Assembly: GCA_001599935.1 (NCBI GenBank)
Contig: BCIJ01000001.1
Span: 312,277-376,276, forward strand
DNA: 64,000 bases
Source of the DNA: Holtermannia corniformis
Lineage: Eukaryota > Basidiomycota > Tremellomycetes > Holtermanniales
Direction: 5' to 3'
Part shown: one piece after another, positions 1,658-53,891 of the stretch
How the letters are laid out: each line of letters opens with the position of its first letter
How positions within the stretch are numbered: position 1 is the first letter of the stretch
Program-made: the position numbers and the translations under genes
The notes under the pieces: model-generated
Seen by the model: only the letters and a program-made list of their open reading frames with translations
The model's database searches: none
What the model was told of the DNA's origin: nothing

Positions 1658-1663
1658 TATAAG
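1658..1663 (+). promoter_or_regulatory. TATA-like element of Cys-rich peptide 1
   Basis: TATAAG, 45 bp upstream of the ATG at 1703. The two paralogous peptide genes have comparable elements 37-41 bp upstream of their ATGs. Confidence 0.5.
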
Positions 1664-1702
1664 CTGCTCGCTGGAAAGCCCTTGGGCGCGCAAACGCTAG
1701 CA

Positions 1703-1919
1703 ATGCTTTCCATCATCGCTCTGATCCTCTTGCTCACAGGCGTATACGCGGGCTCGTGCGAGGAGGCATGCGAGTTGACATACCACTTTTGCTTGTCAGG
1801 TACGTCTTGCACACGATCCCAACACCACTGACTGACAAGCAGCCGGCGTCACTCAGTCCGCGTGCGGCGTTGAGCGCTGGGCATGTATGGTGGCGTGCGC
1901 GACCACCGGTCAGATCTAG
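1703..1919 (+). CDS. Small secreted cysteine-rich protein, family member 1 (57 aa)
   Basis: Two exons, 1703-1799 and 1843-1919, joined through a 43-nt phase-1 GT-AG intron. Residues 1-16 form a hydrophobic signal peptide with likely cleavage after VYA. The 41-residue mature peptide has exactly six cysteines: C19-x3-C23-x6-C30, a nine-residue loop, then C40-x6-C47-x3-C51. The intron falls in the loop. A TATAAG element lies at 1658-1663, 45 bp before the ATG. Two paralogues lie at 17374-17599 and 18100-18341. I know no named family with this pattern. A secreted effector, antimicrobial or signalling peptide is inference only. The signal peptide, splicing and paralogy make a real gene likely. Confidence 0.75.
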
Positions 1920-1960
1920 CAGGCTTGGCCCAAGAAAAACACCTGTGTACTGGATGCCAT

Positions 1961-3045
1961 CTATGCCTGCAGAATGTACGAGCTCCGGCGCCGGTTGTGC
2001 ACTGCTTCGTGCGCATTGGCTTCCTGCTGCTCTTGGACCTCTTTCGGGTTCTCGACCGAGAGATCGCGCGTCTGCAAGAGCCGATCAGCGTGCGTGTTCT
2101 GGCGCCAAAGCGAATCGGGGCAATGACGCACGATAAACGCTGCGAGCCACACGAAGATGACGGTGACGGGATTCAAGATGAAGACGTGCTTCAGGCTAGC
2201 GGCGTAGGCTGCGCGAGCTAGGCGCTTAATCCGCTTTGGGAGGATTGACAGACTTTCCGTGTTGGTACGGATCTCTCGGATGATCTGGAGATGGTTAGTG
2301 CGAGTGCCAAGGTCAAGATGCGCGATCGAGAAGTATCCTTGGATTCTCGATCCGCTTGGCGAGTTCGCTTGTCAACGACGTTTGGAAGATGGCGCTCGAT
2401 AAGCTGACGCCGACAAGCTGGCTGGTCGAGCGGAAAAGCCAGCTGAGACCGGTGGTGGCAGCTACATTGCCAGCTGAGCGCATGTCAGCTACCGAACTCG
2501 TCCAGCTGGTACTCGCGGTGCACCGTCATCAGTACGATCACGGCAGTGTTGGTCAAGCAGCCATGACCCAGGGCGAAAGGCAGATGTGCGGGCTATCAGT
2601 GGCTGCTACTCACGAGCCAGTATGGTCCACATACAACACTGAACCACGAGGCAAAGAAACCAGAGGCCGAGTCGAGCTCGTAAAGCGGTACAAGCCCGAC
2701 GATGAGCAGTGCCGAAAAGAACAGATTGAGGCCCCAGTATCTTCCACAGCGGTGCAGGAACTGAACGCGATGAGCGTTGACTGGTTTCTGGGAGCCGAGC
2801 ACTGACGCCAGCACCAAGAGTACTTCCGATCACTTGTCCCGCGGATATGACGGTCAGGTCCGCGCTGGAAAGGCGCCCTTGACAGTGATCAAGCAAAGCG
2901 GTAGGTGGTACATCTATGTGACTTCAGCCTGACGCTCTGCCGTGGCCGCGCAACGCACAATGGTAAAGTTACTCATTGTGAGGCCCGTAGTCATGATGCA
3001 CACAGCAATCGCCGTTCGGTCCTTGAGCAGATCAAATGCTAGAAC
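1961..3045 (-). pseudogene. Decayed MFS transporter copy, N-terminal half missing
   Basis: Reads as the C-terminal half of a DHA2-type MFS transporter paralogous to the intact gene at 5732-7844. Matching blocks include LAFDLLKDRTAI against LAFNLLRSRTAL, HRCGRYWGL against HRTGRYWKL, and TSELAKRIENP against TSELNKRIPDP. Lesions visible in the sequence are loss of everything upstream of about 3045, a deletion of about 10 nt near 2845-2870 that puts a stop after FPART and shifts frame, an intron near 2590 shrunk to about 20 nt, and loss of the GT donor of the last intron near 2330 (GA in place of GT). Two other introns keep the paralogue's positions. It is probably a tandem duplicate in decay. 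Expression of a spliced remnant cannot be excluded. Confidence 0.75.
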
Positions 3046-3403
3046 TGAAGCTGTCAGCACCGCCCCGTTCGTTGCCAACCGCGCAGACTCCCTCGCTCTC
3101 ACCTGCGCGCCTGCATCGATTGCATGGACTGGCAGCAACTTTTATACCTAGCGCCAAACCGCCTCGACACACGGGCGTGAAAAGAGGTATCATCTGTCCG
3201 TGGACGCACTTCGCCACTAGCGGACTTGACTGCCGAGGTATTATAATCAGATTCACATGAGTTGCTCGTGCTCCTATACAAAGATGGTGTTACTGACGCG
3301 CAGTTGACGTGGTCCCTCTGACTTGCTCGTCCTCGTCCTCTGTCTCACCTGGCCTTGTCTTTGTTCGTCCCGCTCACTCCTCAAGCATCCGTGGCGGTGG
3401 CGG
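3046..3403. other. Intergenic stretch, no gene seen
   Basis: I see no supported coding sequence here. The open frames lack MFS or other family motifs, so the missing N-terminal half of the neighbouring transporter copy is not simply displaced into this stretch. Confidence 0.4.
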
Positions 3404-4511
3404 CTATGTAGTCGACCTGCGCACGGGCTTAGTCGGTGAGTGTGTTGGGACTATGGCCGAACGAACGTGGGCCTTGTTCAGAATACGGTCCGATCGGCGA
3501 GTTAGGCGTTTATCGGGGGCTGGCATCAACAGAGGGAGGAAGTGATGCCTGCCATCAACGGTGACTCGCGTTCGCGTCGCGGCCATGGTGACATAGATGA
3601 ACGACTCGAACATACCGAACGCGGCAGATGGTGCCTCGCGAGCGACGACCGTCAGCGCGATCTGAAGTGTCTTGCCGTCAAGACAGACGTGCGTGACCGT
3701 GTCGAGTGTGAAGATGGACCCGAAGTCCAAATGGTTGTCGTGTAGGCTCACCACTACCTGTCAAATCAGTTTGCTAGCCCTGGGTTCTACACACCTACGC
3801 GCCGCAGGACATCCATTGTCTTGTCCAGAGTAGCCGCATCCGGTACCGCCTGTGCACCTACGCCAGCTTGACCCGACGTCGAAAGCTGCCACGACGAGCC
3901 CGAGAATGTAGCGAGATTCGTTGCAAGATGAGCGAGCGCGCCGGGGTCCAACTCGGCTTCGAAGAACACGCCAACCAAGTAGGGTGACTCGGTACAGTCG
4001 AGAGGCTTGTTGAAGCATTTGACTGGCATGGCAGAGAGCATGTAATCTGGGGTAGGCGCAGTACGCTGATCGACCTTGTGCCAAGCTCCTGCGCTCCGGC
4101 CGAAACGGGTGATGCTGTTTTGGCTTTCATTCACGTCGACACCCAAATCGAGCAGGGTGTCGACGCTGAAGTCGAACAGTGTCGCGCTGTAGAACTCGGC
4201 CAAGTTGCCGCGGAGACTACCGTGATCGGGCCAGAACGCGGCACTCGCCCTTTCACGCTGGCGTGCAGTATGGTCCTGCATGAATCGCCAACCATCATTT
4301 TGCGACGAGCGGAAGCGATCGTTGCTTTCGAGGGCCTCCTTTGCTGAGTTGATCATGCTTGGGCACCACTCGAGCTGAACGCCGCGAGCCCGCCGAGCGG
4401 CTGAGGATGCAAGCGGCTGCGGCCCGCGAATAGTGAGACGTGTTGAGTAAAAAGAAGCTCAGCCACGCTGTTCGCCTTTGAGGTAATCTCGAGGAATTCG
4501 CTTCCAGTCAT
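3404..4511 (-). CDS. Unrecognised protein-coding gene, boundaries uncertain
   Basis: A long open minus-strand segment from about 4390 to 3787 includes DFSVDTLLDLGVDV, KVDQRTAPTPDYMLSAMP and ESPYLVGVFFEAELD. It is followed by an in-phase join (donor after RR near 3790, acceptor near 3755) into VVVSLHDNHLDFGSIFTLDTV and AREAPSAAFGMFESFIY. Composition and the clean splice join look like real protein. The 5' exon is uncertain: MTGSEFLEITSKANSVAELL (ATG near 4511) is open in another frame, and I could not find a convincing splice into the main exon. The 3' end is also uncertain and could be the stop near 3404 or an earlier one after a short intron. I do not recognise the family. Confidence 0.5.
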
Positions 4512-4898
4512 GTTGCGCGATGGACGTCTGTAGAAGGCGGAGCCGATGATTGCATCGACTCGGCAAAACGCCAGCATTGCATCAAGTGATGGACGGTGAG
4601 AGCATGTGTTAGCGAGGCGCCAGGACCTGGCTAGCCGCATCCGTCTTTTTCTTTTGGCATTCCGCGCAGTTTCGCCAGAAGTGCCAAAGGGACGGTTTTC
4701 GAGATTGGCTCAATCGTCTTCGCCATCATCGAGGGCGGCTGCAACCTCCCCTTCTTCCTCCTCTTTGTTTGTGCTCCGTTTCAGTCGCCTACGAGTTGAT
4801 CTTTATGGCCTGTTGGAGCCACGTCCTGCGTCATGCATCACGTGTCTGCCGGCGTGGGTGTGTTGTGGCGCCGTTCGGATCTATTCAAGCTTAAACTA

Positions 4899-5576
4899 AT
4901 GGACCAGCTCATTTACAACGACCTGGTCGCGGCCGGCCGCGCGTACATCGACAGCCTCGTCCCGCTGGATGATCCCATCACATTCTTCAGGGCGGTATTG
5001 GATGTCCCGGCCCATAGGGACTACACCGCCGCCACTGGCTGGCTACTGCCGCCATAGGGCCAAGCGCAGACACAACTCGACCATTGCATCGCGCAGCACC
5101 CCGATGCTCGCAAGGCAGTCGTACAGCAGGCGCAAGGTGCACAAGCAGTGCATACTCAAGAAACCCTGTACCTCACCGTGCTGCTCAATCATCCGTTGCT
5201 CGTGCAGCCGCTCTGTAGCCGGCTGTGCAGGCAGGCTGCTCTTCGGAATGATCCTTGCTTCTCACAGAGTGCGGTGGTCACGACTACTGGTACATGTCAC
5301 ACGAGCGTCCCGACAACCGACTCTGACGCTTGGACGAATCCGAATGACATGGTGTGAACAGTGCTTGCCCGTCACCCGTCACCCGTGGCACTGCGAGTGA
5401 TATCGGATATTGCGACTCGTTCAGGGCGCTGGGAGCAGCAGCCCGAGCTCGCCATCACTCTTGCGCGCACTCTTCTGCGGCCAAGATGGTGCAATCGCGC
5501 CAGGCACGGTGAAATCGTCGCGCACGACGTCTACCCGAGCGGTCCAGCGCTGTGCGCCAGGCGTGTCATAGAGTAG
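4899..5576 (+). CDS. Unrecognised protein, about 155 aa, three exons
   Basis: The exons join in phase as 4899-4994, 5058-5214 and 5362-5576. An apparent in-frame TAG at 5055-5057 is the acceptor dinucleotide of the first intron (63 nt, phase 0). The second intron is 147 nt, phase 1. The product starts MDQLIYNDLVAAGRAYID and has a Gln/Ala-rich middle with the stretch ETLYLTVLLNHPLLVQPL and a helical C-terminal part (ALRVISDIATRSGRWEQQ). No signal peptide or membrane segment is evident and I recognise no domain. If the second intron is not used, the frame instead ends at 5357. It ends convergently with the MFS gene at 5732. Confidence 0.45.
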
Positions 5577-5731
5577 GCGCTCTGCAGACGTTTGTCTGGT
5601 ACAGATGCCATGCAATGCTGGAGATGCTACACTGATTCCTCCTGTTCTACAGGCGCCTCCTTTGGCTTGGTGTCGTTCACCTGCCGATCCTCCATCTGTC
5701 CAAGCGTCAGCCTTTGTCCGACTTGTGTAGA

Positions 5732-7844
5732 TCAACGCACCAAGAAAGCACAGATCCAAACAATGATCGTCACGAACAGCCCAAACAAGAACACAGTTCG
5801 CAAGCTGACAGCAAAGGCTTGTCGCGCGAGAACTTCAACGCTCTTGGGCAGCTTTGCCAGAGTGTTGACGTTGACGCGAATCTTTTCAACAATCTAGTGT
5901 GATCAGTACAGTGTCGAGATTGCGTTGTAGGTAGACGTACTTCTGGATCAGGAATACGTTTGTTGAGCTCGGAGGTGAGGGTCGCCTGGTAGATTGCCCC
6001 GGAAATGCCAACACCAGAGAGCTGACCGATAGCGCGCCAGAGCCAGAGCAGACCCGTTGTAGACGCAATCGCATCAGCTGTGAGAGGTCGGCACACTACA
6101 AGTCATACGGCGCCACGACGTACGATTGACAGTCATGAGCGCGACAAACGAGGTGTTGAGAACGAACCCATAGCCAAAGGCCTGCGGAACCTAGAGATTG
6201 CCGCGTGAGTCATGTGGACGCTGGTACGGATAATGAGACTCACCACTACCATCCATTGCACAAACGCAGAGGACTGCGCATTCATCTTCCCGAGCAGCAT
6301 CATGGTGACGATCGGCAGGATGGCAGCTGCCAAGCTGAGCTTCCAGTACCTACCAGTGCGATGCAGAACCTATCCCCTGGTCAGTGTGTGCCATGACTGT
6401 GACGTGACATGTACGATGCCGCCAGTCGTACTTCCGACAACTTGAGCGAGCGAGGTTGGCATCAGGTGCGCCCCTGCCTGCGCCGGAGTTGCACCCAAAA
6501 CGGTAATGAACAACAGGGGAAGCTGGTACAGCTACGGATCATAGTCAGCAGTATAACAGTAGAGAACAGCAAACGTACGACAGTGAAGTTTGCTATCGCT
6601 ACAAACGTGGCGATGACACAAGCGCACAAAGCCGTGCGGCTGCGCAAGAGGTTGAAGGCGAGGACTGCGCAATCTGAGCTCGCCTCTTGGGGATCAAGTG
6701 ATGAACGGAGCTGACCAGGCTCTTTGACGACGAAAGCCTCTAATAGGATGAAGAGGATACCAAACGCGATGGAAGATACGGTGAAGAGGATCACTGTGGT
6801 GTCGCGCATCTGAACTGTATCAGCCCCGCCTCAGCGTTACTCTAAACTACGTACAGGACGACCTTGGTTGGATGTGAGACTGAGCAATGACAGGACAGAC
6901 CCAAAACATCCAAGGAGCATTGACGGGCCGAGGTAGTCGATCCGGCCGAGCTTCTCCTTGAACGTATCGTCACGCTGGTTCTGGTAGTTGTAGTTGATCC
7001 GGAACAGGCCCGAGATACCGCACAGCAACAGCAGCGGGACCTGGACTGACAGGATCTCAGCAGATGCAGACTTGTACCGTTGTGAAACTCACAGCCGAAA
7101 GCAGAACGCCAGCCGAGTTTGTCATTGATGGCGCCGCCGATGAACCCACCGGTCGCCGCACCGACCTGATCCGTCAGTGTCGGCTCACCCATCCATCTCT
7201 CGGTTCGCTCACCGACCACAGAAGTCCAGAGATGGCCTGCACTACGCCTCGTTTCCGCAACGGGAACAGATCACTGGCGATGATCGAGCTGGTAGTCAAC
7301 ATGCCTCCTCCGCCGATCCCGGCGATGAAGCGAGCGGCCACAAACCAGCCGAATGTCGGGGCGGCGCTGCACATGAAGTTGCCGATAGCGAAGATGAGAA
7401 TGGCGGTAGCGTTGGATATTCTGCGACCAAACGCATCGCAGAGCCTGGAAGCGAACATTAGCTCACTCGTCGGCTAGTCATCTGTCACGCACCGACCGTA
7501 CAGCGGCGTGAAAGCCAAGCTGGAAAGCAGATACGCCGTCCCGAGCCATGATGCCTCATTGGAGGCGTCGAATGAACTTGAGATGCTCGAAGCAATGCTA
7601 GCCACAATAGTCGAATCAATCGCCTGATCGTACGTCAGAAAGGAGCTTGCGCGACCTCGCGCGTGAAGCGACTCACACCAAGAGCACCGGCTGTAAAAGT
7701 ACCGGCAAGGATGTGCACTTTGGCCGAGAGGGGTAGGTCGTATGGCGAGGACTTGATCGCCGGCACTCCAGCGAGTGTTACTTCAGAGGTGGAGCGTAGC
7801 AGTGGCGACCGCTCAGTCGCGTCGCGCGTGTTGACCGTCGACAT
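5732..7844 (-). CDS. MFS transporter, DHA2/vacuolar basic amino acid transporter-like
   Basis: Multi-exon major facilitator. The ATG at 7844 opens an acidic N-terminal tail (ERSPLLRSTSEV), followed by a spliced TM1 region with the family motif GAIDSTIVASIASSIS. Next come RLCDAFGRRISNATAI, GIGGGGMLTTSSIIASDL, AATGGFIGGAINDKLGWR, GRIDYLGPSML, NFTVVLYQLPLLFITV and HLMPTSLAQVVGS, ending in a last helix before FLVR and the stop. This fits the 14-TM DHA2 family (Fnx/Vba-like, often vacuolar amino-acid carriers). The substrate cannot be read from sequence. A degenerate copy of its C-terminal half lies at 1961-3045 in the same orientation. The intron after PDPE is 50 nt with normal GT-AG ends, unlike the matching site in the copy. 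Confidence 0.88.
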
Positions 7845-8510
7845 TGTTCGTCTGCTACCTCCCAGTGAGCTCGCGATGGGCGAATCTTGCCGACAAGTCT
7901 AGATAGAAGCAAGTGTTTACGATCTGCCGACCGATCAGTGTGCATGCGAGGATGCCAAAAATCTGACTTGACAATAGGCGATCTCCGAGAGGCGGCGCCG
8001 CCGGTCGGGCGATTCGGAAGTGTCACGCGCTGGCTCGTCAAGGTTTCGGCCCCTTTGAGCGTCTTTGCTGCTGCTGATGGAGATCGTCACCTTGGAGACA
8101 GGGCTCTTGTGATTGCGCAATCAGCAGTCATTATGCAGGCACAGTGTTTGGTTCCCTGACGACCACGGACGGATGCCGGACATGGCCGTGCAAGGCAAAC
8201 GGGGCAACACCAGTCAGCGCCAGCCGTCGGTGACGCCTGTGCGAGTCCGAAGCAATGCAACACCGACGATCTGATCAGCAAGACGCCAGGCCAGAGTGAC
8301 CATGACGAAGGATCACCTGAGGAGGGTTTCGGACAGTTGCCCTGCGTTTGTCGCGCATCCCTCAGAGCGTACAGGCTCAACACCTGACCACCCGTGCGCG
8401 AGAAGCAAGGCCAGCCAGCCTCGTTGACCTTATAACAAAGGGGAGCGAGTTGCGTCTGACCAAACTCCCCCACCCGTCCACAACCAACGTACATCAGACA
8501 TACAACTATC
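7845..8510. promoter_or_regulatory. Divergent intergenic region between MFS gene and small charged protein gene
   Basis: About 670 bp between two divergently transcribed genes. A TATAAC element at 8431-8436 lies about 80 bp upstream of the plus-strand ATG at 8511. No coding sequence is supported. Confidence 0.45.
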
Positions 8511-8749
8511 ATGCCCCACGTTCGCGGTCTGGGAGCCGACTGCGGCTACATGAATGCAGAGTGAGTCGTTGGCAGAGGCACCTGATGGTGTATCTCACCG
8601 AGTCCTCAAGGATTCAGCGGCGCGCGAGGGTCGAAGCCGAGCGCAAGAAGGAGCAGGAAAAGGCTCGCAAAGATGAAGAGAGCGCCAAGGAAAAGCAGGC
8701 CTCGGCGAGCGAGAAGGAGAGCGCCAAGTCCTCGAGCGAGAAGAAGTGA
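8511..8749 (+). CDS. Small highly charged protein, about 62 aa
   Basis: Two exons, 8511-8560 and 8611-8749, joined through a 50-nt phase-2 intron (donor GTGAGT, acceptor CTCAAG). The short N-terminus MPHVRGLGADCGYMNAE is followed by a strongly helical Lys/Glu/Ala/Ser-rich tail (RVEAERKKEQEKARKDEE and so on) that should form a coiled coil or stay disordered. No signal peptide or membrane segment is evident. I know of no named family. A TATA-like element lies 80 bp upstream. The in-phase splice and the sharp charge bias support a gene, but function is unknown. Confidence 0.55.
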
Positions 8750-9250
8750 TCATGGCCCCCTTCGTGACTTCATCCTAGCCCATCTTGTGAAGTGTTCCCA
8801 ACTGTCGGATGTTCCTGTGTATACGAGAGATGCCATACTTGTCAAACTGTGCTTGACGCAGCGATTGTAGCTGACCCCACCTGGATCACTGCGCCGGCTG
8901 GCTGACCACGCAAACCTAATTGACAGCCCGCATCGCTGGCTCGGCGTCAAAGTACGCACCTTGACATTGAAGTCGACCAGCGCCAGCAGTATATGAGTGC
9001 AAATCAAGACGAGCCAAGCGTCGCCTCGCTGTTTGGGTCAGTAAAGCTCAATCGCAAAGACAGCACGCACGGCCTCGGAGCTTATCGGGATCCCGACGTA
9101 CCCGACCGGGCTCCGATCGCCCTCGCTGTGGTCGGACCCATTGTCTGGAACGCTATGACCGCGTCGAGCAACAGCAGGGACCCAACTGTGAACAACGACG
9201 TCGTTCAAGCTTAATCAAACTGAGACGGGGCATAGCAGTACTTTAACAAA
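8750..9250. other. Intergenic stretch upstream of beta-adaptin
   Basis: About 500 bp with only unconvincing open frames. It presumably holds the 3' end of the small charged gene and the promoter of the beta-adaptin gene. Confidence 0.4.
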
Positions 9251-12035
9251 ATGGCGGACGCCAAGTTCTTCAGTGCGTACAGTAGTGTCCGAGGCGGTGA
9301 TGATGTAGGCCGTCGCTGACCAGGCATCATCTTCTCTTGCGTTGCCTCATGAAATCTCACCCTTGCATTGCATCATCTCGTCCTCTACCGTTGTGTTAAT
9401 CCTGCTCGGTCTCTCTTCAGCCCGAGGCAAGACGCAAGAGCTACGGCAGGAGCTACAGGCGGCGGACAAGAAGGACAAGGGCTTTGTGCGCAAGAAGACG
9501 GTCCTCAAGAAGATTGTCGCAAACATGACGATGGGCAATGATAGTGAGTGCTGTGTGACTGAGTGACAACGCCGTGTCGAGCCGATACCAATACAGTGTC
9601 ACCGCTCTTTGCCGACGTGGTTCAGTGTATGGCAATCCAAGTGTTAGAGATCAAGAAGAGTATGTATCGGCCACTGTCAGCAATCTATGACTTACACTTT
9701 ACTCCAGTGGTGTACCTATATCTCGTCAACTATGGGCGAGCTAAACCGGAGGAAGTCGCATATGCCATCTCTGGCTTTCTCTCTGTAAGCTGCGCTTCCT
9801 TTATCAACGGCCCAACGCTGAGACCGCGACAGGATTGTGCGGACCGTAATGCGTTGATTCGAGCGTTGGCGATCCGGACAATGTCGAGTATACCTCTTCC
9901 AGCCATCATTTCGGCACTTGTGGACCCGCTTCGACACGCTTTGGAGGACCAGGACCCTTATGTGCGGAAAACGGGCGCTATCGCGTAAGTACGAGGTGCT
10001 CGCGACGATCCCTACCTGATTTCCGTCACTCCAGTGTGGCAAAGCTATACGCCACGGACATTGGACGACGAGTAGTCGAGAAGGAAGGCTTTGTAGCTAT
10101 GCTCCGGTACGCCCGCGGTCATGTCATGTGCTCGCGGCTGACCTACTCTCTCACAGAGACCTGTTGGCCGACTCGAACCCAACAGTCGTCGCCAATGCCG
10201 TCGCGGCCCTCGTCGAGATCTCCGACCGGAGCAACGACATTTCACTACGGCTCAACGCGGTCGTCGCGGGCAAGCTCGTGGCTGCGCTCGGCGAGTGCTC
10301 GGAATGGGGTCAGATTTACATCCTCGACTCGTTGCTGTCATTCGTACCGCAAACGGCCCTCGACGCCGAGACGCTGGCTGAGCGGATCAGTGTCCGATTA
10401 CAGCATGCCAACAGTGCGGTCGTCTTGACGACAATCAAGGTCGTGCTGTACTTGATGAACTACATGGAGGACGAGAGTCTAATCAGGAGCTTGGAGAGGA
10501 AGATGGGCCCGCCGCTGGGTATGTGATCGATCCGGTGATGGACGATACTGACCCTGTTCAGTGACACTGCTGTCATCAGGGCCGGAAGTGCAATACGTCG
10601 GCCTGCGCAACATCTTGCTCATCATCCAGCGCCGACCAGCAATCCTTCAGAACGAGGTCAAGGTCTTCTTCTGCAAGTACAACGATCCGATCTACGTCAA
10701 GCTTGCAAAGCTTGAGATCATGTACCGGCTAGCACGGGACGACAACGTCAGCGAAGTCCTAGCAGAGTTGAAAGAGTCAGTGCTTTTCCCGAAGCCAGGG
10801 CGTCAAACTGACTGCTGTAGGTACGCGTCCGAAGTCGATGTCGACTTTGTCCGAAAGGCCGTCCGGTCGATCGGTCGGCTCGCGATCAAAATCTCCTCGG
10901 CCTCGGATCAATGCATCACGACACTGCTCACACTCATGCAGACCAAGATCTCGTACGTAGTCCAAGAGGCCATTGTCGTCATCAAGGACATTTTCCGGCG
11001 TTATCCAAACCAGTACGAGAGCATCATCGGCACGCTGTGCGAAAACTTGGACGCTCTGGACGAACCTGAAGCCAAGGCTGCCATGATCTGGATCGTGGGG
11101 CAGTACGCGGACAGGATCGAGAACAGTGATGAGCTGTTGGAAGACTTTATGTTTACGTTCAAGGAGGAGCCCGCAGAGGTGGGTTGTTGGAGGTGGATGG
11201 CAGAGAGCTGACGCGCTCTAGGTTCAACTTGCATTGCTCACGGCGACCGTCAAGTTGTTTATCAAGCGACCGACCGTTGCGCAGGAGCTACTGCCGAACG
11301 TCCTGAAGCTCGCCACGGAGGAAGCAGAAAACCCAGACCTGAGAGATCGCGTAGGTATTCGCTTATAACCCGTGCGCCCGCTGATCAGCGCTAGGGCTTC
11401 ATGTACTGGCGTCTGCTCACCGCCAACCCGACCGCAGCACGCGATATCGTGCTGGCTGACAAGCCGGTCATCTCGACCGAGACTGATCGAATGGACAAAG
11501 GCATGCTTGATCAGGTGGGTTGATTGGCATCAAGCGGACTATACTGACTGCCTGCCTACAGTTGTTGCTGCACACCGGCACCCTCGGCAGCATCTACCAC
11601 AAGAGTCCACAGGTGCGACCTGTGCTTGTCTTGCCGTTGAGCGTTCTCTGATCACGTATACAGACCTTCATCCGGACGGCGAAAGCACGATATCTGCCTG
11701 GTACGTCGTTCATATCTCACAGCGCCAGACTAAACGCCTCAGACTCGCCGGCACTCAACGCGTCATCTCGCCGACATCTCATCACTGCATCGGGCACCAG
11801 CGTACCCGCGGCGTTTGCCAAACCCAGCGTACCGACAAACTCGACCTCTCAGCGACCACCGACATCAGCCGCCGAGCCGGTCACGCCGGTCACGGGTGGC
11901 GCTGGCGATGACCCGTACGACCAGCTGGGCGAGTTTGAGTTCTCCGGTAAAGGCGGCGGAGTGGGGACCGGCGGAGGCTACCAGGCAGACGCACCGCAGC
12001 CTCGAGGTGTAGGCGAGGAGGAGTTGCTATTCTGA
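9251..12035 (+). CDS. APL2: AP-1/AP-2 clathrin adaptor complex beta subunit (beta-adaptin)
   Basis: Large subunit of a clathrin adaptor that sorts cargo at the trans-Golgi/endosome (AP-1) or plasma membrane (AP-2). The spliced start reads [20 protein letters not shown], with a 148-nt first intron (9273-9420) and a GT-AG phase-1 join. The helical trunk then contains [73 protein letters not shown] and [16 protein letters not shown], all hallmark beta-adaptin blocks. The C-terminal part is a Ser/Thr/Pro linker ending [11 protein letters not shown] and GEEELLF. There is no appendage (ear) domain, as in many fungal beta-1 adaptins, so AP-1 is preferred. About a dozen short introns interrupt it. 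Confidence 0.95.
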
Positions 12036-12653
12036 CTCTGGCTATGGATCGTAATCATTGTCTTGAATGGCTTGTCGTCACCCTCGCTGCCATCGTCATC
12101 CCCAGCTGATAGTATGAGGACATCGCAGACAATACAGATAGGATGTGCAAATCGCAGACTCTCGTGCGCCTCGTGCATCCTGCGCCAGGGGGTCGAGGTG
12201 ATATTCCATGTCGCGCATTTGGTTGAGCAGTCGCTGCCCGTAAAGCTTGCCTTTTCCTGGGCTTTACGCATCTGATTGACCTGGATGCCTCGGCCTGTCT
12301 CCTGGAGGCTCTCAAAACCATAGACCGCTGTCTTGCTCGTGTACATCACGGCTGCACCATGCCATAGCCGTCCCTTTCCAGCTGTATGCTATACCTGAGC
12401 TGGATGAGCTCATGATCACAGACTGGGCCCAACGAGAGTACATGATCTTGGCATGGGGCGTTGACGCGCCTTTGCATGGAATCGCGATGGTCACGTTTCC
12501 TGCAGAGCGCCTTGACGAGCAACCATCCTTTCAGAACTGTCATCCGACGTCTTCGATGGCTAGAGAGAACTAGCAAGACCATCCCACGCGGCCATCTGCA
12601 CCAGCACGCGTCCAAGCAGGGAGGATCCCGGGTCACCGGGGCTGAGCGTCAAG
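12036..12653. other. Unresolved stretch, possible short intron-rich gene on minus strand
   Basis: 620 bp between beta-adaptin and the transporter. Minus-strand frames contain helix-like pieces (ESLQETGRGIQ near 12300, LYGQRLLNQMRDMEYHL near 12230) and an uninterrupted 97-codon frame from about 12636 to 12346. I could not assemble one convincing spliced protein or recognise a family. Treat as unannotated rather than empty. Confidence 0.25.
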
Positions 12654-14406
12654 ATGGTTGAGCACGGACGTCAGACGGCGTTCGCGTTGGAGGACGAGGA
12701 TGAGGAACTGCACCGCCGACCAGAGCCTTCTCGAGGCCGTACGCTCTCCAGTGGATCAACGCGTCAAGCCGAGCGATTACCTTCGTTCGGTGCAGCAGAG
12801 GATACGCAAGCTCTCTTGGGGTCGTCACGGCAGACCTCGACAAGCAAGATCACTGAGGACGAGGACGGCTACACGGGTGAAGGCGAGAGTCATGCTCAGC
12901 GAGTAGCGACGAGAGAGCAAAAGGCAGCGTTGTGGTGGAGAAACTTCTTCATCACTGGTATCTTTGTCTTACTCTGGTGAGCATGTTGCCTGATTACCGA
13001 CTTGCATTAACGTCTCTGGCAGGTACACATTCGCAACCCTGCTCTCGGTCTACAACAAGTGGATGTTCTCCCCGCAGTACTATGGTTTCTCCTTCCCACT
13101 CTTCGTCACCTTTTGTCATATGCTGGTCCAGTTCACCTTGGCTGCGTCCGTTCGAGCGATCTGGCCGCGGCACTTTGTTCCTCCAGAACGGCCAAGCTGG
13201 AGAGACTATTGGTGAGTCCAACGCATGATCCTGTCGAGCAGGCCATCGACTGACGGTGCTTGTAGGACAAAGATTCTGCCGACGGCTGTCTCGACGGGTG
13301 GTGATATCGGCCTATCGAATCTGAGCTTGAAGACTATCACGCTCACTCTCTATAGTGAGTTTGCGCGGACCTGCCTGGTCTAACCCAAACAGCAATGTGC
13401 AAATCCTCCGCCCTCATCTTCGTCCTCGGCTTCGCCTTCCTGTTCAAGCTCGAATCCTTTTCTCTGCGCCTCGTCGGCGTCATCTCCTTCATCAGCGTCG
13501 GCGTCTTCTTCATGGTCTTCAACGTCACAGCCGTCTCGATCCCCGGCATCCTCATGGTGTTCTCCGCATCCTTCCTCGGGGGACTTCGCTGGGCGTTGAC
13601 TTCACTGCTCATGCACAAGCGCGAGATGGGCATGTCAAACCCGTTTGCGACAATCTACTGGCTCGCACCTTTGATGGCACTCAGCCTGGCCGTCGTCAGC
13701 ATCGGCATCGAGGGCTGGGGTACAGTCTTCGGCAGTGGCTACTTTGACGGCATCGGCTCCATCTGGACGATTCTGGTGATCATGTTCCCTGGCGGTCTAG
13801 CGTTCGCAATGGTCGCCAGTGAATACTAGTACGTTCACCTCGCACTATCATGGCCTATACTTACGCCCTGGCGCAGCATCATCCAACGTGCCGGAGTCGT
13901 GCCATTGTCGATCGCGGGCATCTTCAAAGAAGTCACGACCATCAGCATATCCGCATGGGTGTTTGGAGACCGCCTGACAGAGCTCAATATTGTTGGTGTC
14001 ATCATCACCATCTTTGGTCAGTTCACTTTCAAGCCCTCAACCATCACTGACGCCGGCAGGCATTGCATTGTATTCATACCACAAGTACACCAAATCGCTT
14101 GAATCGACCGTGCCGCTTGACGCGCACGGCAACCCGCTGCTGCCAGATCCAGATACACTCGGATCATCACCCGAAAACATGTCACTTGTCCACTCACGAT
14201 CCCATTCTCGTACTCATTCTGTCGCCAACTCGGTTCGGCATGCCTACCCGCCGCACCTGACCCAAGAGGAAGAGATTACTCAGCGTCGAGATGATTTCGA
14301 AGGCTTCAACCAGCGTTACGACGACGATGACGAGGCTGAGATTGAGCGCCGAGAGCGTGAGCAGTCTGAGGGATTCTGGAGTTGGCTGAGGCCCGTGTCA
14401 AAGTAG
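12654..14406 (+). CDS. SLC35-type nucleotide-sugar/triose-phosphate translocator family protein
   Basis: Polytopic membrane transporter of the drug/metabolite superfamily. An acidic, Ser-rich cytosolic N-terminus of about 100 residues precedes some ten helices. Recognisable blocks are LLSVYNKWMFS, the second helix FPLFVTFCHMLVQFT, GGDIGLSNLSLKTITLTLYT, MCKSSALIFVLGFAFLFKLE, GLRWALTSLLMHK and FKEVTTISISAWVFGDRLT. The C-terminus is an unusually long cytosolic tail with HSRSHSRTHS and an acidic RYDDDDEAEIERRERE stretch ending in FWSWLRPVSK. The family resembles SLC35C2/Ymd8 proteins of the Golgi or ER. The substrate is unknown. Splices such as that near 12976 (GIFVLLW into YTFATLLS) are standard short introns. 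Confidence 0.88.
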
Positions 14407-14486
14407 TCTGATCGTGTGTAATGCATAGATGGGTTCGAGACACAACACGAGTATACAACGCTCTCATCCTCCTTTATCTTGCGACT

Positions 14487-15338
14487 TCATCTCCATCCAC
14501 CTCCGGCAGACTTCCATTCGGATGCTGAAGTCGCCCACGGTCGATCGGGACCGACGCCGATGGCGGGTGGACGCGCTTGCACCCACCGCGGTCCCGCGGG
14601 TTTCTTGGCCATCTCCTCAAGAGTCTTGCCAATGGGCAGTCCGTACACCATCTGCTTCTGAATGGGTGCGGTAGTTGGAGGTGGCGGTGTGGCAACGACG
14701 GTGCAGGGCGAGTGTACCGCCGGCGAGTCAAAGTAGTGTGTTGGCTCGGTAGGCGAGATGTAGCCCGAAGGTCGGGTCGGCGTCTTCATGGGTGCATGCG
14801 TGCTCACTCCGGATCCGGTCGAGTGTACCGAGTAGTATGAAGAAGGTGCATAACCGCTCACCGCCGACTTGTAGTGTGTGCGCGGCGGTAACTGGATCTT
14901 CATGTTGGGTTTGGGCTGCTTGTGCTCTCGGATCGTGCCGAGCGACACGGGGGTCGAGTGAGTGCGCTTGCCCAAGGTTGGACGGTGAGGGGCTGCCGCC
15001 GTGCTTGGCGGTTGGACGACTGATGGTGGCAAGGTGTCAGCTCTTTGACGTTCTTGCATAATCGGCGCGAATCGCGGCGGCACCGTGCCACACGCTGACG
15101 GTGTGTATGCACTTCCTCCGTCGTACCAGGCAGGCCCAGGCGAAGCAGGACTGCAGGTAAAGTATGACGTCGGCGCGGCGGCATAGCTGTGGCGGGGCGA
15201 AGCCTGGCTCATGGCCATCGAGATGCTGGCAGCTTGTAGGTGCGGGGGCTGGGCAAGACTTCCAGGAGGCTGCCACCCACCGCCACGGGATAACGAGGGC
15301 ACGTCACCTGCCATGTAGCGATCTGGTTCGATGGGCAT
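14487..15338 (-). CDS. Pro/Ser-rich hypothetical protein, 283 aa, single exon
   Basis: One uninterrupted frame, unusual in this intron-rich window, starting MPIEPDRYMAGDV. It is rich in Pro, Ser, Thr, Ala and Tyr, and predicted disordered over nearly its whole length, with SP/TP sites (SPASPGPAWYD, SPTEPTHYFDSP, PTRPSGYISP) typical of phosphorylated regulators. A short C-terminal block (QKQMVYGLPIGKTLEEMAKK) is the only stretch that looks folded or linear-motif-like. No domain, signal peptide or membrane helix is seen. It is a real gene on length and composition; its function cannot be inferred. Confidence 0.65.
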   Translation of the reverse strand: MPIEPDRYMAGDVPSLSRGGGWQPPGSLAQPPHLQAASISMAMSQASPRHSYAAAPTSYFTCSPASPGPAWYDGGSAYTPSACGTVPPRFAPIMQERQRADTLPPSVVQPPSTAAAPHRPTLGKRTHSTPVSLGTIREHKQPKPNMKIQLPPRTHYKSAVSGYAPSSYYSVHSTGSGVSTHAPMKTPTRPSGYISPTEPTHYFDSPAVHSPCTVVATPPPPTTAPIQKQMVYGLPIGKTLEEMAKKPAGPRWVQARPPAIGVGPDRPWATSASEWKSAGGGWR

Positions 15339-15647
15339 TGCAAGACGAAGCTAAGCACCCGTACGAGGTGCAAGCGGAGGTTTGGGTGACCGGGAGAAGG
15401 CCGATGCCAAACGGGTAGCCTATAGGTCCTTCCTTATCAGCGCTCTTGCATCAGCCTCCGTCCGGAGCTCAAAAGACATGTGTCGTCGAGTGATAAGTGC
15501 ACAAAGGAGTCAGGCACTCGCCATCGCCGTCGTCTCTGACGCGATAAGGCAAACGCGCGGCTGCACAAAGGAGGCAGCGCGATGCGCGTGTAACCAGGGG
15601 TCCAAGAAAAGACGTACATGCACCCGCATCTCATCTTGCACACCCCA
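15339..15647. other. Intergenic stretch between two minus-strand genes
   Basis: About 310 bp that must hold the 3' end of NTA1 and the promoter of the Pro/Ser-rich gene. No supported gene. Confidence 0.4.
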
Positions 15648-16999
15648 TCAAGATACAGTAGCAAACAGCACCATCTCCTCGGACTGGTTGAGGCAATCGA
15701 CGAGCTCGATCCGACTTGGATCGCTCGACATGGTCATGACAGCCGATGTGCCCACAAAGGTCGTCCCTAGCGTCACAGGCGTGAGCGCGCTATGTGACAG
15801 AAAAGAAGAATACGCGCACCATTCTCGAACCCAACTCGATTGCAAGCCACAAAGATCACTTCTCCCTCTTTGCGCAGCGGCGTGGTGGCTGCGGCCGTGG
15901 TCTCCGCTTGGGAGTAGCCAGGGGTAGGATCATGGAGCGGGCTCAGTCGCGCCGCCCAGTAATTCAACGTTGATTCTGACGGTCGGCTAGTGTCGACACG
16001 CGGCGCGTCTTCACCTGCACTGGGCGGTGGATCTAGCCAATTCATGCTGATCGAAGGTCAGAAGGTCAACATGAGATCAAGCACCGACTCACGGGACAAC
16101 GAGGATGTCCGCGCGATTATCCCGAGCGAACGTAGCCAGTTCGTATGCGTCCCATGGCGCCACAAAGTCCTTTGGATTCATGTCTGTGGCCGTGAGCAGG
16201 CGTCAGGTCAAAACGCAGAGCACTCACCCATGCAAATCCCTACCGCTACTCTACCAAGAGGCCGCGGTAATTCAAACAGCCTGAAGCCATCACCTAGTCC
16301 GATTAGTCAATGCACGCCGCTAGTGGACACATATACCTTCCCGTGCCCAATTCAGGTCAGTCTCGAATCTGAATGTTTTCCGATAGTTGCCAATAATATC
16401 CCCGTGCGGTCCCACCACCACGGCCGAGTTGTAGCCCACGCCCTCGCCCTCCTTGGCGACGGCACTGCTCTGCGATTGTGCAGCTACGTCGTCTGGCAAG
16501 TCCGTGGGCTCGGGTTGGGCGGCTTCCGGATAGCCACAGATAACAGAGCACCGGAGTCTTTGCGCCAGTGATCTACAGAAGAGCGAGGTCGGGCCGACGC
16601 GAGGCTGTTCGAGGTATGGCTGGATTGATGCCGGGGTCGTGAAGACGTATCCTGCCGCATCGTCAGTACATGCGTAGTCGGCTACGGTCCGGGTCGTACC
16701 GGACATGGCCATTTCTGGTAGTACTATCAAATCTACAGAGCCTGGTTGTAGGCTTCCAGGCGTTAGTTGCACTCAAGCAGGAGCGCTGAACCGACTTTCG
16801 TGTCATAGCCTCGACCTTGGCGATGTTGGCTTGGACCTGCCCAATCTATCTGTTGTAAGTGATCTACGCCCTTGCATATACTGCTGTCAGCTACCTTGGC
16901 ATCGAATTGAACGCATGCTATCCGCACTGGCGTGGATCTGTACAGAGGTGCTGGAGATCTTGGCCTGCTAGGAGGTCCTAGTTCGTTCGCACCGCTCAT
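15648..16999 (-). CDS. NTA1: Protein N-terminal asparagine/glutamine amidase (carbon-nitrogen hydrolase)
   Basis: Deamidates N-terminal Asn/Gln to Asp/Glu, the first step of the tertiary branch of the N-degron pathway. The ATG at 16999 opens a short Pro/Ser leader before strand VRIACVQFDAK. The nitrilase-fold triad is visible: Glu in LIVLPEMAMSG, Lys in IGNYRKTFRF, and Cys in VAVGICMDMNPKDF, which is restored by splicing near 16200-16260. Downstream blocks are PWDAYELATF, DILVVPMNWLDPPP, LNYWAARLSPL, EVIFVACNRVG ahead of a short intron, and TFVGTSAVMTM, as in Nta1. The gene ends at the stop 15648-15650. Length and motif order match the family, so the assignment is firm. Confidence 0.93.
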
Positions 17000-17373
17000 T
17001 CTGGGAATTGCGCTTCCAAACAGTCTCGGCGAGTGTATCGTCAACCGCGACGAAGCCTTGCGACCCACCAGCAGTGACCTTACTAACAACGACACGTTGA
17101 CCAGTGGGGACTGGTAGGCCCCGGAACGCAACAACCTCATTCCTGAAACGTTCACGTCACGACTTTTTCCAATGTGGCAAGTGGCGGAAGGGAGGTGGGA
17201 GGTTTGCGGTTTGCGGTTACGCACTTGCAACGGGAGAGCACGCCAAGGGGCCTGGTTGGTGACAAAGAAGCCTACCAATCTGATGATTCAGAGCAGGAGG
17301 TGACGTTGAAGAGACTCAGTCATGACAAGATACATCTCCATGCTGCAGCGCAGCGACGTCGCGGGCTCGGTCT
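17000..17373. other. Intergenic stretch upstream of NTA1
   Basis: About 370 bp between the NTA1 start and the stop of Cys-rich peptide 2. No supported coding sequence; probably the NTA1 promoter. Confidence 0.4.
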
Positions 17374-17599
17374 TCACCTGTAGTGCACGCAAGACATCAA
17401 GCAGTTTCTAAGCGACTCGTCGCAGATGTCCTGTACTGTGCTCGTCAGCGCGTATCACAGCTCCCTCGTACTGCAACTCACTGGTCTTGGGACAAGTCCA
17501 ATACGCCGCCCAGCATGCCGCCACACACATTGATTGCTGCGCTTCAACAACGCAGACGCAGACGGCTGCAAGAGCCAGTAGGGTGATTGTAGAGTGCAT
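17374..17599 (-). CDS. Small secreted cysteine-rich protein, family member 2 (59 aa)
   Basis: Two exons on the minus strand, 17482-17599 and 17374-17435, joined by a 46-nt phase-1 intron (donor GTGAGT). Residues 1-20 are a signal peptide with likely cleavage after VEA. The mature part has C25-x3-C29-x6-C36, a seven-residue loop, then C44-x6-C51-x3-C55, the same mirror-image pattern as at 1703-1919. Overall identity to its paralogues is low; what is kept is the Cys spacing, the aromatic residues between C2 and C3, the intron position and the phase. It is transcribed divergently from family member 3 across about 500 bp. Function unknown. Confidence 0.75.
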
Positions 17600-18099
17600 G
17601 ATTCTTGCAGGCAAAGGGCCCGCCGGGCGCAGCTGTATACTATCCACCGGTGGATCATCGCGCCGTCTGAGGCTCGCCACCGTGCGCTGCCTGCACATCA
17701 TCGAATGACACCATGATCCACTAGACGGCTAAAGCACCAGTGAAGCGTGCGACGCCTTGTGTGCTCGCTGATGGGCTCGACGACTAGTCCGCCGGAAACG
17801 GTCCGATCTTGGCCAATATGCGCTTGCGTAGCGATGGTGCGATCGCTAGGAAAAACGTCGCTGAAGCCACCACGAGGCGCAGTCGATGCACAGCATCTGC
17901 ACGAAACAGGCTGCAGAGCGCGCAATCGTCTGCCGGATCAGCAAGTATTGGCCAAAGGGACCCAAAAGGAGTCCCTTTCTCATGGCTTCTCTTGACGATG
18001 CTTCTTGCGTGCCGCATCGTTACCGAACATACATGTGCGCATTGTCCGACTGGCAAGCTGCTTATAACCGTGCTGGGTCGCCACCGACGCACGCCAAAC
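17600..18099. promoter_or_regulatory. Bidirectional promoter region of the paired Cys-rich peptide genes
   Basis: 500 bp separating family members 2 (minus) and 3 (plus). A TATAAC at 18063-18068 lies 37 bp before the plus-strand ATG. A weaker TATACA on the minus strand at about 17636-17641 lies roughly 37-42 bp before the other ATG. No gene is supported inside it. Confidence 0.5.
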
Positions 18100-18341
18100 A
18101 TGCTCCGTTCACTTGTTATCACGCTCGCGCTGATGGCCACGCTAGTCGCCGCGCAGCACTACGTCCTCCAACACAAGAGCAAGAAATGCATCAAAGCGTG
18201 CGCCAGCATCTACTACGCCTACCTTGCCAACGGTCAGCGACACACAAGCACGCCTTCGCGCTTCGCTAACCTCGCCTCGGCGCAGGGTGGGACGAGACGA
18301 TCGCCTCGATCAACTATCAAGTGTGCTGCTCGCTTTGCTAG
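18100..18341 (+). CDS. Small secreted cysteine-rich protein, family member 3 (62 aa), two Cys replaced
   Basis: Two exons, 18100-18232 and 18286-18341, joined by a 53-nt phase-1 intron. The signal peptide is residues 1-18 (likely cleavage after VAA). The mature part begins QHYVLQHKSKK, then C30-x3-C34-x6-Y41, a nine-residue loop, A51-x6-C58-x3-C62 and an immediate stop. So the third and fourth family cysteines, which flank the loop, are Tyr and Ala here, while C1, C2, C5 and C6 are kept; an extra Cys follows C5. The frame in exon 2 is the only one that gives the family pattern. It may be a diverged functional copy or an early pseudogene; the intact splice sites favour function. Confidence 0.68.
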
Positions 18342-20873: not shown

Positions 20874-23411
20874 ATGGTCGGCCCTACCGCGTTCCCAAAA
20901 GTCTACACCGTCAACGGCCCATCCTCAACGTCCTCTCCCTCGCTCCCAACATGGCTCACAACCAAGACGCGCCCCACAAAGACGGCCAAGAAGCGTCAAA
21001 AGACGCAGCACACGCTCGGCCAGCTCGAACTCATCCAAGACTTTGCGTTTCCCGAATCCGCCATCAAGATCAAGACGACGCCAGATGGATTGCATGCGAT
21101 CGGGACGGGCGCGTACAAGCCGATGATGAAGGTCTGGGATCTAGAGCAGTTGACTGTCAAGTTTGAGCGTGTGACGGACGCTGAGAACGTAGACTTTGCG
21201 GTATGTCGGTGCGGCACGCGAGCGTTGGGAGACTAAGGGGTCGTACAGATCCTCTCAAATGACTGGACAAAGACTCTTCACTTGCAGCGTGACCGCTCGC
21301 TTTCGCTGCACACCCAAGGCGGCCTGCACCACTCGCTCCGGTTACCGCGCTACGGTCGTGCACTAGCCTACCATTCGCCCTCATGCGACGCCCTCGTTGC
21401 CTGTACCGGACTCGAAGTCTTCAGACTCAACCTCGAACAGGGGCGCTTCATGACCCCCCTCACCATCGGTCAAGGGCCCAGCGAAGACGTCGGGGGCGTA
21501 AACTGCGTCGACGTCAACCCGCGCCACGGTCTCTGGAGTCTGGGTCTCGAAGGCGGCGGCGGGACGGTTGAATTCTGGGACCCACGCTCAAGAACGGCTT
21601 TGACCCGGTTGCAACTGCCGGCGGCTGACTTGCTGCCGACGCAGGGCCTCAGCACGGGCTCGCTGTACGCGCCCAACCCGTTGAGTGTCAGCGCTCTCAA
21701 GAGTCATCCAACCGACGGGCTCTCGTTGGCCGTCGGGACGAGCTCGGGACATACGCTGCTGTATGATCTACGGTCGCCAAAGGCGTTTGCAGTCAAGGAC
21801 CAAGGTTACGGCGAGGCCGTCAAGGTGGTTGATTGGCTGCGTGGCGGCGGTCCGCAAGAGGACATGGGCCGCGTCGTCAGTGCCGACAGCAAGGTCGTCA
21901 AGGTCTGGGGCAAGGAGGATGTGCGTTGTGCCTGTACCGTTTGGTTTGCGACCTGTGTTAATCACTCACAGCCATCTACAAATCACCTGTCGCTTCACCC
22001 ACCCGCGCCTTTGGTCGACCTCCATCCCGTGCCAGAAACAGGCTTGATCATGGTTGCATGCGATGCCGCCGCCCTGTCCTCATACTATGTGCCCGAGATT
22101 GGGCCGGCACCAAAGTGGGCCAGCTTCCTCGACAATGTCACCGAGGAGCTCGCCGACGACCCCGCGGCTGGGGGTGCCAGCAAAGGCGCATACAGCGACT
22201 TCAAGTTTGTCGACCGAGCCGAGCTGGACACGTACGTAAACATCGTCTTCTTTACCGCGCCGCTAACGCATCGCTCAGCCTCGGCCTCACTCACCTCATT
22301 GGCACGCCAACGCTCAAACCGTACATGCACGGCTACTTTCTCTCTCTCAAGCTCTACTCTGCCGCCCGGCTCATTGCCAACCCGCAATCGTACACCGAGC
22401 ACCGCGAGCGCATCCTCACCGAGCGCCTGGCCGCACAGCACGAATCCAGGATCAGAGCGAAAAAGGATCAACCAAAAGTCAACCGGGCGCTCGCAGAGCG
22501 CGTGCGGAAGAACGAGGAGAAGGACAAAGACCGGGCGAGGCAGAAGCGGGAACGATTGGGCGAAGAGGCGGAGGCGGTGGAGGGCGAGCAAGGCACGATC
22601 CTCGAAGACCCGCGATTCAAAGAACTGTGGGAGAACCCGGATTTCGAGGTCGACGAGGACAGTCGCGAGTTTGGCATGCTCAACCCGGCGACTGTACACA
22701 ATGTGAGTTGGCACGGTCGAGCGCGACTGGCGGCCGATGCTGACATCCTGCAGGCTCGCAAGAAGACGGCCGTCGAGGAGGAAGAGGACGAGAGCGCGAG
22801 CGCGTCTTCGGACGGTCTGGGCGAGAGCAGCGAAGACGACGTGGACAGCGACGAGAGCGACGATGGCGGTGAGTTTTCGTTGGTGCTCAGATGGAACCAC
22901 GGCTGACCTCTCAGATCTACGCCAATACGACCCACGCAATTTCAAACCGTCCGAACGCCCGACCCAAGGCGGCTCTCTTGCACGCGTCGGTGCCAAACAG
23001 CGCGATCGCCCCCGTCTCGTCTCGGGCACAGGCGAGATCGACGACTCTCGACCCCGTCCGTCCTCGACCTTTGGTCAACGTCTCTCGAGCCAGCCACAAC
23101 GGTCTGGCAAGTCACGCGAGCGCGACGGGAAACCCGAGGGTGTGCTCGCGATGCGCAAGCAGGCCGACGGCGGGATGGAGATGTCATTCATCCCATCCGG
23201 ACCAAGTGGTGCTGCCGAAGACGGGCGCGATTTCGATGGCGAGGGTGGAGCCAAGGAACGGCGGAGGAAGAAGCCAGAGACGTTCGGTGCCGGCCTCGAA
23301 AAGGGTGGCGATGAGCCTGAGCACGAGCTCGATGGCGACGCGAAGAGCGGGCGCACGAAACGGAGAGAGGTTGGGCGCAGCGCGTCCAAGAATGTCTTTA
23401 GGAAGCGATAG
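20874..23411 (+). CDS. ENP2: ENP2/NOL10-like WD-repeat ribosome biogenesis protein
   Basis: Nucleolar WD40 protein of the small-subunit processome needed for 18S rRNA maturation. The N-terminal block VYTVNGPSS followed by KTQHTLGQLELIQDFAFPE and TPDGLHAIGTGAYKP matches the family. It continues with MMKVWDLEQLTVKFERV and the beta-propeller (NCVDVNPRHGLWSLGLEGG, VEFWDPRSRTAL, VVSADSKVVKVWG). The conserved DVKF-like segment YSDFKFVDRAELD precedes the NUC153-type region FKELWENPDFEVDEDSREF. A charged tail has GEMSFIP-like MEMSFIPSGP, RRRKKPETFGAGLEKG and a basic C-terminus. Introns are near 21200-21250, 21920-21972, 22230-22278, 22704-22752 and 22870-22914. It ends only 25 bp from the stop of the convergent gene. 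Confidence 0.94.
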
Positions 23412-53290: not shown

Positions 53291-53891
53291 GATAGCTAGC
53301 CGCTTGCTGTCCCTAGACGCTGTCAATGTCGACCGCGTCCGCTTCAGTGTGTTGGTAGTGTGCGTAATGATGGTCTTTGACCTATCAGTCCAATTGAAGT
53401 TGAAGTTGAGGTTCATCTCTGGCAGATACATAGGTCGTAGCCGCACTGAGATGACATCGGTTTCACGTCGGTGCCTAGCGTAGATGTTGCTCGGACACGT
53501 TTCATGCATGCCTTTGACTCCGCACGAGCGAGCTGTGACACAGCCACCTGTGTTGCACCGATACTGTGACGGGCTCGGGGATATGGGACAGCTTGGAGCT
53601 GTGCGAACCGAGTTGAGAGACGATCGGCTATCAGGCACGTCGCATCTGCTCCACTCGCATCAAATTTTCCTGACCGCCGATATTCCTCGTACATAAGTCT
53701 AGCGGCGCTTCCCAGGCTTCTGCATGATGTAGACACAAGTGTACACATTGTAGACAATCAGCTCTGCTGCATACCCATGCGCTCGAGCTGATTTGGATGT
53801 CCTCGACTTGCTGACGTAAGCATACCGCGTCGCTTCCGAGCGTTACAGAACCATAAGCGAGCACCGACTACAATTGAGATCCTTGCCCACC
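53291..53891. promoter_or_regulatory. Divergent intergenic region, mini-Myb / Zn2Cys6 factor
   Basis: 600 bp between divergent ATGs. Frames in it are unconvincing; no gene supported. Confidence 0.4.

Follow-up and report, generated by a model that had tools for sequence, protein, structure and literature searches.

Three genes with a mirrored cysteine spacing

We analyzed a 64,000-nucleotide stretch of contig BCIJ01000001.1 (hereafter C1) of the basidiomycete Holtermannia corniformis, referred to as the window (C1:312277-376276 of a 20.2 Mb assembly), in which three short genes, members 1, 2 and 3, encode predicted precursors of 57, 59 and 62 amino acids, respectively (Table 1). Each frame opens with an ATG and a hydrophobic leader, ends at a stop codon and contains a single predicted GT..AG intron of 43, 46 or 53 nt, respectively, in phase 1 and within the loop that separates two cysteine half-motifs. 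Coordinates, lengths, intron sizes and phase were reproduced from the first-pass annotation of this DNA, and the signal peptide that it assigned to each precursor corresponds to the leader found in all three. Leaders were assigned from hydropathy alone and splicing is a prediction; the gene models, the cysteine spacing, the place and phase of the introns, the divergence between members and the joint absence of the cysteines C3 and C4 described below were read directly from the sequence. The intron donors are GTACGT, GTGAGT and GTCAGC, and a branch-point-like CTGAC or CTAAC lies 11-20 nt upstream of the intron end in the three genes.

Member 1 has the spacing C-x3-C-x6-C-x9-C-x6-C-x3-C and member 2 C-x3-C-x6-C-x7-C-x6-C-x3-C, exactly as previously claimed, while member 3 carries the two substitutions that had been described, a Y at the C3 position and an A at the C4 position, together with an additional Cys beside C5 (CC). 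Two AGs could serve as acceptor in member 1, giving an intron of 43 or 40 nt and a loop of 9 or 10 residues. Each window gene also permits many alternative in-frame splice choices, and the models that we chose retain the cysteines, so the choice of splice sites leans on the pattern. Members 2 and 3 are divergently oriented with their start codons 500 bp apart. A TATA-like element, predicted earlier at 37-45 bp before the ATG, was found at positions -45, -40 and -37 of members 1 to 3. As a trait of the whole family it was rejected: counting the members described below, a TATA lies at most 160 bp upstream of the ATG in only 4 of 7.

At least seven divergent members on one contig

The search was extended to 250 kb of added sequence, namely 170 kb of C1 adjoining the window (100 kb before and 70 kb after it), 30 kb from the start of C1, which is partly masked, and 50 kb of a second contig (C2). 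An intron-aware spacing scan returned four more members on C1 outside the window, three of them in tandem; in each a single intron is predicted in the loop, in phase 1 and 44-53 nt long. The family of three proposed at first was therefore too small, as at least seven genes lie on the same contig; none was found across the 50 kb of C2. In all seven the modelled intron is in phase 1, 43-53 nt long and within the loop, the loop measures 7-10 residues, and both half-motifs are exact in 6/7. When the whole 314 kb was scanned tolerating any two missing cysteines (at least 4/6 cysteines, a leader, a phase-1 intron and a loop of 7-10 were required, with donor list, phase and loop range chosen after the members were known), the same seven genes were returned and nothing more. 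Only one of them is degenerate (member 3, mask CC--CC), and of the 15 possible two-cysteine losses only that of C3 and C4 occurs, once.

Outside the cysteines the members are hardly alike, as had been noted for the first three: of the 18 helix positions not occupied by cysteine, any two have 1-4 residues in common, and the alignment has a Tyr at the fourth residue after C2 in 6/7 members. Protein searches of the organism's own genome with member queries matched the exons of the query genes and no others. One candidate at C1:400652-400873 was dropped, having C-x3-C-x6-C and lacking the second half-motif; it is possibly another secreted cysteine peptide or a chance frame.

Table 1. Family members, TATA-like elements and neighbouring features. 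Coordinates refer to the window unless preceded by C1.
Feature	Coordinates	Strand	Details
Member 1 gene	1703..1919	+	exon 1 1703-1799, intron 1800-1842, exon 2 1843-1919
Member 2 gene	17374..17599	-	exon 1 17599-17482, intron 17481-17436, exon 2 17435-17374
Member 3 gene	18100..18341	+	exon 1 18100-18232, intron 18233-18285, exon 2 18286-18341
TATA-like TATAAGC	1658..1664	+	45 bp upstream of member 1 ATG
TATA-like TATACAG	17633..17639	-	40 bp upstream of member 2 ATG
TATA-like TATAACC	18063..18069	+	37 bp upstream of member 3 ATG
Member outside window	C1:260512-260753	+	from intron-aware scan
Member outside window	C1:281547-281784	-	tandem of three; three possible in-frame start codons
Member outside window	C1:282179-282413	-	tandem of three; no branch-point motif in scans
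Member outside window	C1:282720-282955	-	tandem of three
Enp2/NOL10-like ribosome biogenesis protein, exon	21237-22706	+	Pfam PF23098; top PDB match Enp2
Protein kinase, exon	31793-32839	-	top PDB matches serine/threonine kinase 24 and MST4
Zn(2)-Cys(6) fungal binuclear cluster domain	53820-54671	+	
Small frame outside window	C1:400652-400873	+	leader-like start; C-x3-C-x6-C-x3-C-x5-C
Predicted two-exon frame outside window	C1:401190-401560	+	leader-like start; 10 cysteines

The spacing is specific

We compared the observed spacing with other spacings, using scan filters that were fixed before the added sequence was obtained. Within the window, mirrored spacings of the form C-xa-C-xb-C..C-xb-C-xa-C gave 2 loci for (3,6) and none for the 69 other combinations. 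Over the window plus the 250 kb (304,297 bases once most masked N were removed), 2401 spacing combinations were scanned: (3,6,6,3) gave 6 loci, four others gave one locus each and the remaining 2396 gave none. No (3,6,6,3) locus occurred in 60 first-order Markov surrogates of equal length; these preserve only the dinucleotide content, and the spacing control is hence the stronger of the two. In 234 kb, one strand carries 14 and 15 copies of the single half-motifs and the opposite strand 16 and 17; from these counts simple arithmetic predicts about 0.5 close pairs, compared with 6 observed. These six pairs are the six strict members, each with an ATG, a leader, an intron and a stop. A looser control (C-xa-C..C-xa-C, a=1-9, strict intron score) yielded four intron-bearing genes at a=3 and a single one at a=6; at a=2 it gave one frame lacking an intron, other values of a gave nothing, and 3/7 members were missed. 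The notion that these are chance open reading frames, for which the shortness of the genes speaks, is contradicted by the spacing controls, the surrogates, the half-motif counts and the scan for two missing cysteines, and is so implausible that it can be set aside. The cysteine-patterned family is real and cleanly defined.

A predicted helical hairpin and its proposed disulfide pairing

When the peptides are placed on ideal helices, C1, C2 and C3 fall within 40 degrees of one face, as do C4, C5 and C6, a clustering reached by 6/100 spacings. Six inter-helix pairings were tried in a rigid two-helix fit with approximate C-beta positions. The nested antiparallel pairing C1-C6/C2-C5/C3-C4 was strain-free with 13.0 A between the helix ends, and three pairings were strained. 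Nested pairing would bond C3 to C4, in keeping with their joint absence from member 3. Besides splicing and secretion, the helices and their pairing as well as duplication of the genes are inferred. The helical hairpin is a model, which idealised geometry allows and favours, and we consider it probable that this is a multigene family of small secreted peptides, each made of two antiparallel alpha-helices joined by a loop of 7-10 residues, with the nested disulfides C1-C6, C2-C5 and C3-C4 stapling one helix to the other. The cysteines on one face of each helix would hold the fold together and nearly all other residues would be free to vary, giving a stable scaffold with hypervariable surfaces. 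The family may have expanded by duplication, including that of one tandem of three.

Several observations weigh against this reading. The parallel pairing C1-C4/C2-C5/C3-C6 fits equally well with helix ends 25.6 A apart, a distance beyond a 7-residue loop in the rigid model and barely within a 10-residue one (loop span being taken as 7-10 residues minus two per end treated as helix). A shifted antiparallel pairing, C1-C5/C2-C6/C3-C4, is nearly satisfied (C-beta distances of 5.6, 5.8 and 4.2 A) and also bonds C3 to C4, so the loss in member 3 fits it equally. That loss is moreover a single event, and two random losses would strike nested partners in 3/15 cases. For the aphid BCR3 peptides, which carry the same half-motifs (see below), the bonding is given as 'Unknown' in the available part of PMC9604261. 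Finally, the member at C1:282179-282413 shows no branch-point motif. Of the hairpin proposed in the first-pass annotation, the two antiparallel helices are allowed and favoured by idealised geometry; in the rigid fit the nested pairing is not unique.

Searches for relatives and the long-loop proteins

No member (0/7) reached a curated Pfam cut-off, NCBIfam held no relative of the 2 members scanned, and a PDB profile search with the seven-member alignment found no relative, its sole match, a prostaglandin synthase at E 5.8, being taken as chance. A protein search with member 2 found nothing, and one with the seven-member alignment, in which only sequences with short words in common were considered, scored 218 candidates with none at E<=1. 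The expectation that homology searches would miss the family was thus borne out, both protein searches being empty. The signature of spacing plus intron detects a family for which our sequence, Pfam and PDB searches turned up no link. Very short exons and barely similar sequences may lead annotation to skip such peptides; should the signature recur in related genomes, it would expose a class of fungal secreted peptides.

A set of proteins with a longer loop, from Glomeromycotina, Chara, Schizophyllum, rotifers and others, was gathered with a query for fungal proteins of the 'zygote-specific class V copy B' type; of 324 candidates, 70 matched at E<=0.001. Named proteins among the matches listed include cysteine-rich proteins of Gigaspora, Jimgerdemannia and Schizophyllum amplum, the Chara braunii protein P0019, called 'Zygote-specific protein', and rotifer and mite proteins, next to many unnamed metagenome entries. 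CX3CX6C and CX6CX3C occur in 63/70 of them, separated by a loop of 21-40 residues (23 residues in 49/63), and 19 other mirrored spacings were counted in 0/70; as the query itself carried the pattern, the 63/70 describes the set and is no independent test. Many have a leader-like start (judged by eye) and some have no leader. For this set (P0003, P0065, P0066 and others) the Pfam cut-off was reached by 0/7 of those scanned, and the long-loop alignment found no PDB relative, although the listing spans several eukaryotic groups. No long-loop gene was found in 314 kb of this genome with loops of 4-45 allowed. In the literature, 'zygote-specific class v copy b gene protein' is merely listed among genes up in acute hypoxia in the available part of PMC9548574, and the word cysteine does not occur in the available passages of the Chlamydomonas ZYS3 paper (PMC4889651).

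Both half-motifs are common to 6/7 family members and 63/70 long-loop proteins, and the members could be short-loop, fast-evolving true homologues of CX3CX6C-x(21-40)-CX6CX3C proteins instead of a separate invention. Aligning the two profiles with hhalign placed all six cysteines in register at E 0.0029, but with a probability of only 10.8% and an alignment dominated by cysteines. The 18 non-cysteine columns were more alike in register than in 20000 column permutations (p ~0.006; 0.011-0.014 with permutation confined to each half), and column orders that were reversed or half-swapped scored lower; with the loop limit set at 45, this test took in 64 long-loop sequences, thinned to 25, and the columns of member 3 were entered by hand. 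This signal could nevertheless stem from shared helix-capping preferences, the comparison set was selected for carrying the pattern, its Gly/Ala-rich loop of 21-40 residues is missing from the family (loop 7-10), and the seven-member search recovered nothing. We find the sequence evidence for homology suggestive and the homologue reading possible, if on balance doubtful, and do not assign the family to the long-loop set. A broader proposal goes further, that a secreted helical-hairpin fold, ancient in eukaryotes and adjustable in its loop, would link these fungal peptides, the 'zygote-specific' proteins and the aphid symbiosis peptides in one superfamily, in which this fungus would have minimised the loop to 7-10 residues and made hypervariable secreted weapons or effectors; this we regard as speculative and unlikely.

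Possible function

Peptides directed at other organisms commonly combine a leader, a stapled scaffold, tandem copies and almost complete divergence at non-cysteine positions. By analogy with BCR3, which acts on bacteria, the peptides may have an extracellular action on microbial competitors or a host, a serious candidate role that we hold tentatively. The net charges of the seven mature peptides (-3, 0, +2, -1, 0, 0 and -2, with cut sites placed by eye) tell against it in so far as a range of -3 to +2 is unlike a classical cationic membrane-lytic peptide. Such near-neutral charges, and the name 'Zygote-specific protein' of the Chara braunii protein with the same half-motifs (P0019), are in keeping with self-signalling or developmental peptides, for instance mating or wall-associated ones, but a conserved internal signal would not usually comprise at least seven paralogues sharing 1-4/18 positions, and we judge this role quite unlikely. 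It is very unlikely that the one-face cysteines hold Zn or Cu in a metallothionein- or chaperone-like manner with no disulfides: helical Cx3C pairs are able to bind metals, but the leader would route the peptides to the oxidising secretory pathway, and mirror symmetry with joint loss of C3 and C4 is better explained by disulfides.

Comparison with known systems

Twin CX9C (CHCH) proteins are disulfide-stapled helical hairpins with CX9C spacing that are mitochondrial and have no leader peptide; the spacing of the seven members does not contain two CX9C motifs. Plant alpha-hairpinins are described, in the available part of PMC7191063, as small peptides with two antiparallel helices and nested disulfides, an architecture that idealised geometry would allow for the present family, along with other pairings. 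Their motifs (4C CX3CX4-20CX3C and 6C CX3CX3CX4-20CX3CX3C; PMC11591084 Table 1) differ from the family, in which C2-C3 is x6 in strict members and the C2-to-C5 interval is 21-24 (23 in member 3).

A close published layout is that of the aphid BCR3 peptides (bacteriocyte-specific cysteine-rich peptides), whose motif is CX3CX6CX21-25CX6CX3C (PMC9604261 Table 3). The pattern, first thought new, had thus already been published, and 63 of the 70 long-loop proteins carry it as well; the CX3CX6C/CX6CX3C layout is known in other eukaryotes, and the family presented here is a short-loop variant. Among the matches listed in the open-access literature, no fungal family with this motif appeared; BCR3 surfaced, and most matches were unrelated. 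BCR3 is reported as aphid-restricted in the available part of PMC9604261. It shares with the family a signal peptide (predicted here), six cysteines and both half-motifs, and differs in its loop of 21-25 residues against 7-10, so that the BCR3 motif is not found in the family. According to the available part of PMC6594739, BCR3 abolished E. coli colony formation at 5 uM, with strong killing and raised membrane permeability; antimicrobial activity is thus demonstrated for BCR3 and would be a candidate activity of the family. By analogy, BCR3 offers a case of these half-motifs serving an antimicrobial, and the signature sets the family beside the antimicrobial peptides of an insect symbiosis.

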